From positions 1 through 39,466 of IMG/VR virus record IMGVR_UViG_3300031227_000150: 39,466 nucleotides of DNA. One strand, 5' to 3'. Shown piece by piece: positions 36,436-36,605 of the stretch (position 1 is the stretch's first letter; the number at the start of each line of letters is the position of its first letter). Source of the stretch: a virus. A program made the translations under genes and the position numbers. The notes below the pieces were generated by a model. That model did not search any database. It worked only from the letters and a program-made list of their open reading frames with translations, and was not told where the DNA came from.

Positions 36436-36605
36436 CTGAATTCTGTTTTGTCCAAGCGCAGACCATTGTATACAATAAATGAGCTACTCCGGCACGTGCG
36501 CCGGAGGTAGGAATTGAACCTACTACCCTTCGTTTATGAGACGAATGCTCTAACCAAGTTAGAATTGCTTGTGAATGAACCACTTAGGGACAATCCAGAA
36601 TCCAA
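36436..36605 (-). ncRNA. Candidate Y RNA 1 with circularly permuted tRNA-Met-like domain
   Basis: The terminal stem of the ~170-nt RNA is TTGGATTCTG/CAGAATTCAG (10 bp, two G-U), then a 2x2 internal loop (GA/AA) and TTGTCC/GGACAA. A two-base bulge CT follows, then AAGTG/CGCTT. This resembles the Ro-binding stem of Y RNAs, whose 3' strand reads CUUGAC in metazoans. The 5' arm continues to CATTCAC, shared with the two neighbouring candidates. The interior is a tRNA-like module. The RNA ends ~60 bases before the Ro60 start, the usual place for bacterial Y RNA genes. Confidence 0.75.
36481..36557 (-). tRNA. Permuted tRNA-Met(CAU)-like module inside Y RNA 1
   Basis: In transcript order: D-loop TTGGTTA and D-stem 3' strand GAGC; anticodon arm TTCGT-CTCATAA-ACGAA; variable GGGTA; T arm GTAGG-TTCAATT-CCTAC; acceptor 3' strand CTCCGGC; a 6-base link GCACGT; acceptor 5' strand GCCGGAG; TA; D-stem 5' strand GCTC. 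Rearranged, every stem pairs perfectly (7, 4, 5 and 5 bp), with a CAU anticodon. The break lies in the D-loop, where the Y stem is joined. No CCA is encoded. It may be a mimic or a processable permuted tRNA. Confidence 0.65.

Follow-up and report, generated by a model that had tools for sequence, protein, structure and literature searches.

The closest described system is YrlA (RF02553), a bacterial Y RNA encoded beside a Ro60 gene, in which a Y stem for Ro60 is combined with a permuted tRNA-like domain whose acceptor hairpin is closed. This domain comprises D, T, and acceptor arms and is modified by DusA and TruB (PMC8394870), and the Salmonella structure (6CU1) can be superposed on tRNA when a circular permutation is allowed (PMC11472068); permuted order has thus been seen in a Y RNA before. 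A second term of comparison is given by permuted tRNA genes, which one review describes from algae and archaea only. In the type I permuted tRNA of Cyanidioschyzon merolae, the 3' half precedes the 5' half, a short intervening sequence lies at the acceptor, and the junction falls in the D loop (20/21), this class being matured through a circle (PMC3978253). Furthermore, actinobacteriophages and the Thermus phage phiLo (9l5y) harbor, like the virus considered here, a phage Ro60 gene beside Y RNA-like units.

The DNA analyzed in the present work (the window) is the virus record IMGVR_UViG_3300031227_000150, positions 1 to 39,466 (39,466 nt). On its minus strand we found two Y RNA-like units, Y1 and Y2, whose features are reported in Table 1 together with those of the neighboring genes.

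Table 1. Positions of the Y RNA units, the Ro60 gene, and other features in the window.
Feature	Position	Strand	Basis or remark
Y1, whole unit	36600-36441	-	Y stem enclosing a circularly permuted tRNA-Met(CAU)
Y1 5' Y-stem arm, TTCTGGATTGTCC-CTAA-GTGG...ACAAGC	36567..36600	-	Fold and family comparison
Y1 D-loop 3' part and D-stem 3' half, TTGGTTAGAGC	36547..36557	-	D stem 4/4, outside minimum-energy fold
Y1 anticodon arm TTCGT-CTCATAA-ACGAA, loop CTCATAA (CAU)	36529..36545	-	5/5 pairs
Y1 variable region GGGTA	36524-36528	-	
Y1 T arm GTAGG-TTCAATT-CCTAC	36507..36523	-	5/5 pairs
Y1 acceptor hairpin CTCCGGC-GCACGT-GCCGGAG	36487..36506	-	7/7 pairs
Y1 acceptor 3' half CTCCGGC	36500-36506	-	
Y1 link GCACGT	36494-36499	-	
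Y1 acceptor 5' half GCCGGAG	36487-36493	-	
Y1 U8 A9 (TA) and D-stem 5' half GCTC (36481-36484)	36481..36486	-	
Y1 3' Y-stem arm, GCTT internal loop	36441..36467	-	
Y2 5' Y-stem arm	37548..37582	-	
Y2 normal-order tRNA-Asn(ATT)-like core, joined to Y stem at acceptor end	37478..37549	-	ARAGORN; Rfam 60.1 bits
Y2 3' arm, ACTT internal loop	37444..37471	-	
Divergent Ro60 (HEAT-like repeats and vWA domain)	34765..36378	-	Full-length structural match to Ro60/TROVE
Hairpin CAATTTTA-ACCGTC...GACGGGA-TAAAATTG	36384-36419	-	Just upstream of the Ro60 gene
HNH endonuclease gene	36845-37432	-	Between Y2 and Y1
Small protein ending in AG	37614-37865	-	Possibly ubiquitin-like (by eye)
RNase_T-type exonuclease	33881-34525		Neighbor of Ro60
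286-aa protein	32496-33356	-	Function unassigned
JAB-like frame	31248-31688	-	No Pfam match
ThiF/E1-like protein	30307-30906	-	Pfam 1.8e-22
Phosphoesterase-like frame	14654-16621	+	Apparently split by intein-like insert (by eye)

From 5' to 3', Y1 consists of a Y arm, the D-stem 3' half, the anticodon arm, the variable region, the T arm, the acceptor 3' half, the link GCACGT, the acceptor 5' half, TA, the D-stem 5' half, and the second Y arm. A preliminary description of this DNA had proposed the same permuted order with perfect stems: every part is present as it said, and on recomputation the acceptor (7/7), D (4/4), anticodon (5/5), and T (5/5) stems are all fully paired after rearrangement. 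Moreover, all 12 near-universal tRNA bases checked (U8, A14, G18, G19, A21, U33, G53, U54, U55, C56, A58, and C61) can be read from the sequence. Once rotated to the normal order, Y1 gives a cloverleaf with these consensus bases and is called tRNA-Met(cat) by ARAGORN; unrotated, it obtains neither an ARAGORN call nor an Rfam match at threshold.

Y1 shares with YrlA the Y stem, the permuted tRNA-like domain, the closed acceptor hairpin, and the position beside a Ro60 gene; tRNA mimicry by bacterial Y RNAs, which the preliminary description took as established, agrees with the YrlA literature cited above. In the 13 YrlA-type units from 11 loci (in phages A3Wally, BearBQ, Tonenili, Boopy, and Belfort and in IMG/VR contigs, a Ro60 gene having been looked for in some of the loci), the Y stem stands beside the anticodon arm and a whole D arm follows the acceptor hairpin, the scan being blind to other break points; the YrlA topology used here was taken from the ARTEMIS paper, one review, and these inspected loci. 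Y1, on the contrary, is broken in the D loop, with only the D-stem 5' half after the acceptor hairpin, and retains an intact anticodon arm, so that the combination regarded as unusual in the preliminary description does differ from every YrlA-type RNA examined. No match to RF02553 at the gathering score was retrieved in the window; this model is narrow, since the YrlA-type control L058 scores 34.9 vs. 69. In locus L097, the protein found close to a permuted YrlA-type RNA is of the DUF2828/DUF7788 (vWA) type and not a Pfam TROVE member (L097:4641-6095 and ~6821).

The combination of T arm, acceptor, and TAGCTCA occurs once in the window and in none of 100 shuffles, and the full Y1 signature once vs. 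none in 60 shuffles. Among 287 fetched loci (2.4 Mb), the full signature had a single other match; this putative D-loop break, in L024, was discarded, being two tRNA-Glu genes side by side, and so was the longest-cover BLAST match of Y1, a tandem tRNA-Asn. The matches listed for the general pattern GGTTCRANTCC-N-TAGCTCA were mostly tandem tRNA genes. Hence, no second Y RNA with a D-loop break was found in these 287 loci (2.4 Mb), in the Y-stem family units described below, or among the 13 YrlA-type RNAs, the viral relatives having been retrieved by sequence pattern. Perfect pairing is not by itself enough to place the permuted fold under selection, as the preliminary description argued: a recent tRNA capture would look identical, and no relative sharing the break was found in which compensatory changes could be counted.

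Such a capture might have occurred if the junction of two tandem, near-identical tRNA genes had become enclosed between Y arms, which would yield the permuted order; duplicated tRNA genes would also account for the perfectly matching acceptor halves. Carried to its extreme, this origin would make Y1 a recent and perhaps neutral product of recombination, permuted without specific function. A 78-nt stretch of Y1 does align (73%) across a tandem tRNA-Asn junction in a 735-kb phage, and the D-loop break has no second example in our searches; on the other hand, pairing is complete, all the consensus bases are present, and tRNA cores recur in most family units in several topologies, and we regard a functionless relic as quite improbable.

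The minimum-energy fold of Y1 keeps the Y stem, the anticodon arm, the T arm, and the acceptor hairpin, with a hairpin TCTAAC-TTG-GTTAGA in place of the D stem. A fold constrained to contain the D stem is 3.5 kcal/mol less stable (-74.9 vs. -78.4), and the D-stem pairs have a probability of about 0.01; the D stem is thus not favored by base-pairing energies alone. Since the nearest-neighbor model ignores contacts between the D and T loops, these energies neither prove nor refute an L shape, which Y1 may adopt if transcribed. The hairpin just upstream of the Ro60 gene shares CGCTTGGAC with the 3' arm of Y1 and might be a competitor for the 5' arm of that unit.

The gene downstream of Y1 codes for a product of 538 aa, whose start codon may lie further in than the listed GTG. 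The protein has no Pfam match, PF05731 included. An AlphaFold2 model built on a 14-sequence alignment (mean pLDDT 77) displays a helical-repeat ring and a vWA fold, and its eleven best PDB matches in Foldseek are all Ro60/TROVE proteins (best E 4.7e-8). VIA-align gave Z scores of 14.9 over 419 residues with TROVE 9kop, 13.7 over 424 with Deinococcus Rsr 2nvo, 13.2 over 433 with Ro60 1yvp, and 12.7 over 414 with the Ro60 of phage phiLo (9l5y); the remaining structural matches were mostly vWA domains limited to residues ~330-515. In an earlier model (6 sequences, pLDDT 64), Ro60 was absent from the Foldseek top 50, and hhalign with two-sequence profiles linked the vWA part alone. Judging from the model, the protein is a remote homolog of Ro60 by fold and not a Pfam member by sequence. 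Its relatives were recovered solely through alignments: probing viral contigs with a single sequence retrieved nothing, and searching genome contigs with the alignments retrieved none. One contig, L122, is the same virus (100% identity) and stops before the Ro60 gene.

Scanning near the related Ro60 genes yielded 16 distinct Y units, Y1 and Y2 included. All 16 have a completely paired stem 1 with compensatory changes, and two to four pair types occur at each of its six positions. In nearly all units, an internal loop has CNNN opposite RCTT (CTAA/GCTT in Y1, CTTA/ACTT in Y2). In vertebrate Y RNAs, CGAA stands opposite ACUU, which we take to be a similar loop. ACAAGC follows the 5' arm in all units, a universality that is partly built in, as the search required this motif, and the registers of the Y arms were set by hand. 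The exact Y-arm pattern had no match in viral contigs, and the ACAAGC-anchored pattern gave no additional convincing Y units among the matches listed. The terminal stem with its Ro60-type internal loop, the pairing of stem 1 throughout the family, and the adjoining gene with a Ro60 fold make it very probable that Y1 is, as assigned, a Y RNA with a tRNA mimic in permuted order; such an RNA should bind a Ro60-type ring protein, and binding to the phage Ro60 is predicted.

The related Ro60 loci harbor several tRNA-bearing Y units each, and the site at which the Y stem is attached varies. It is joined to the acceptor end of a normal-order tRNA in Y2, L124 B, L125 C, L133 B, and L129d (the last with a much reduced acceptor); beside the anticodon arm, with the chimera opened in the Y stem, in L129b, L135a, and L135b; beside the anticodon arm and opened at the acceptor, as a tRNA with a closed Y hairpin, in L129a (47.1 bits) and L129c (44.8 bits, anticodon GCA, U73 and CCA); and in the D loop only in Y1. 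L125 B has no D arm, and L124 A, L133 A, L129e, and L135d have no tRNA part. As related viruses fuse the same Y stem to tRNAs in other ways, Y1 appears to be one variant of a tRNA-mimicking RNA and not an ordinary tRNA gene. L129a and L129c show anticodon-like arms on either side of the Y hairpin; the virus of L129 has two Y-hairpin-bearing tRNA genes (L129:2553-2712 and L129:2852-2996), one of which encodes U73-CCA. Two units without a recognizable tRNA part from two different viruses (L129:3184-3317 and L135:5835-5950) have a common start, TTACAAGC-(A)ATTTGGGGT, and may represent an additional class of effector module.

The completeness of the stems and consensus bases in Y1 is also what would be expected of a permuted tRNA gene, in which the Y stem would be removed, the D-loop ends ligated, and GCACGT excised by RNase P and tRNase Z to release a working tRNA-Met. 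The algal type I genes share the class of break and mature through a circle, and the relatives include open-ended tRNAs with an inserted Y hairpin (L129c, with U73-CCA) and a permuted unit, L129b, whose acceptor loop is exactly GCCA. However, the link of Y1 contains no CCA and no recognized splicing motif was found in Y1, unlike the C. merolae genes, which in turn have neither the Y stem nor the Ro60 gene; these two are explained otherwise, and such genes have been reviewed for algae and archaea only. The idea that Y1 could be the source of a real tRNA, advanced in the preliminary description, assumes both cleavage and ligation; a real tRNA product from Y1 is unlikely (L129c being a better candidate), and we consider this maturation route very improbable. 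A broader version concerns the family: the phages would use three places on a tRNA for attaching the Y stem (acceptor end, D loop, and anticodon/variable region), the chimera would be opened in the Y stem (a permuted tRNA) or at the acceptor (a tRNA with a Y hairpin inserted), and at least some of the products would be processed or charged as genuine tRNAs while tethered to Ro60. We find this rather unlikely.

According to the reading that we consider probable, Y1 is a tRNA mimic tethered to Ro60. Its imperfect stem would bind the Ro60 product of the adjacent downstream gene, and the outer, tRNA-like portion would present the tRNA elbow, the closed acceptor stem, and the anticodon arm to a tRNA-binding protein of the host or the phage, thereby holding Ro60 and that protein together. 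The mimic would correspond to a whole permuted tRNA-Met, entered by the Y stem through the D loop and with the acceptor closed by a 6-nt loop. The persistence of the T arm, and usually of the D arm and the acceptor, in tRNA-bearing units suggests that the working surface is the elbow and acceptor half. The anticodon loops are often intact as well, so that a special case of mimicry with the anticodon arm as the working part stays open: a Ro60-bound panel of anticodon loops might soak up host tRNA-cutting ribonucleases during phage attack. Intact anticodon arms with differing anticodons occur in Y1 (CAU), Y2 (AUU), L129a, L129c, L129d, L135a, and L135b, and competitive inhibition of an anticodon nuclease has been proposed for YrlA (PMC7790460). 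Nevertheless, no target nuclease is known and some units lack the anticodon arm or any tRNA part (L125 B, L124 A, L129e), and such a decoy seems doubtful to us. The RNase_T-type exonuclease beside Ro60 was discarded as the effector of the tethered mimic, as it was not found in the related loci compared.

The window's Ro60 represents a subfamily distant from the other phage Ro-like proteins, with no Pfam match and an operon containing possibly ubiquitin-like, JAB-like, and ThiF genes; the order of the cluster around the Y RNAs and Ro60 mostly recurs in the related loci. Relatives of the HNH gene lie near Ro60 in L127, L129, L135, and L136; in L129 the Y RNAs and Ro60 are likewise separated by such a gene. 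Several HNH-type frames occur elsewhere in the window. In L123 (KX853510, Virus Rctr197k, 1-5587), a Ro60 relative annotated merely as conserved hypothetical stands at the end of some 30 arrayed tRNA genes, and the distant relatives in L126, L136, and L137 likewise come after tRNA arrays in which isoacceptors are repeated.

Bacterial Y RNAs being known tRNA mimics, this family offers a natural set of rearrangements in which the working part of the tRNA can be sought: the attachment point of the Y stem shifts from unit to unit, while the tRNA keeps its T arm, usually with the D arm and the acceptor and often with the anticodon arm. Whether the elbow and acceptor or the anticodon is the working part thereby becomes testable. 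The permutation of YrlA appears as one of several, and the family provides candidate permuted tRNAs in a viral setting, such genes having otherwise been reviewed for algae and archaea only.
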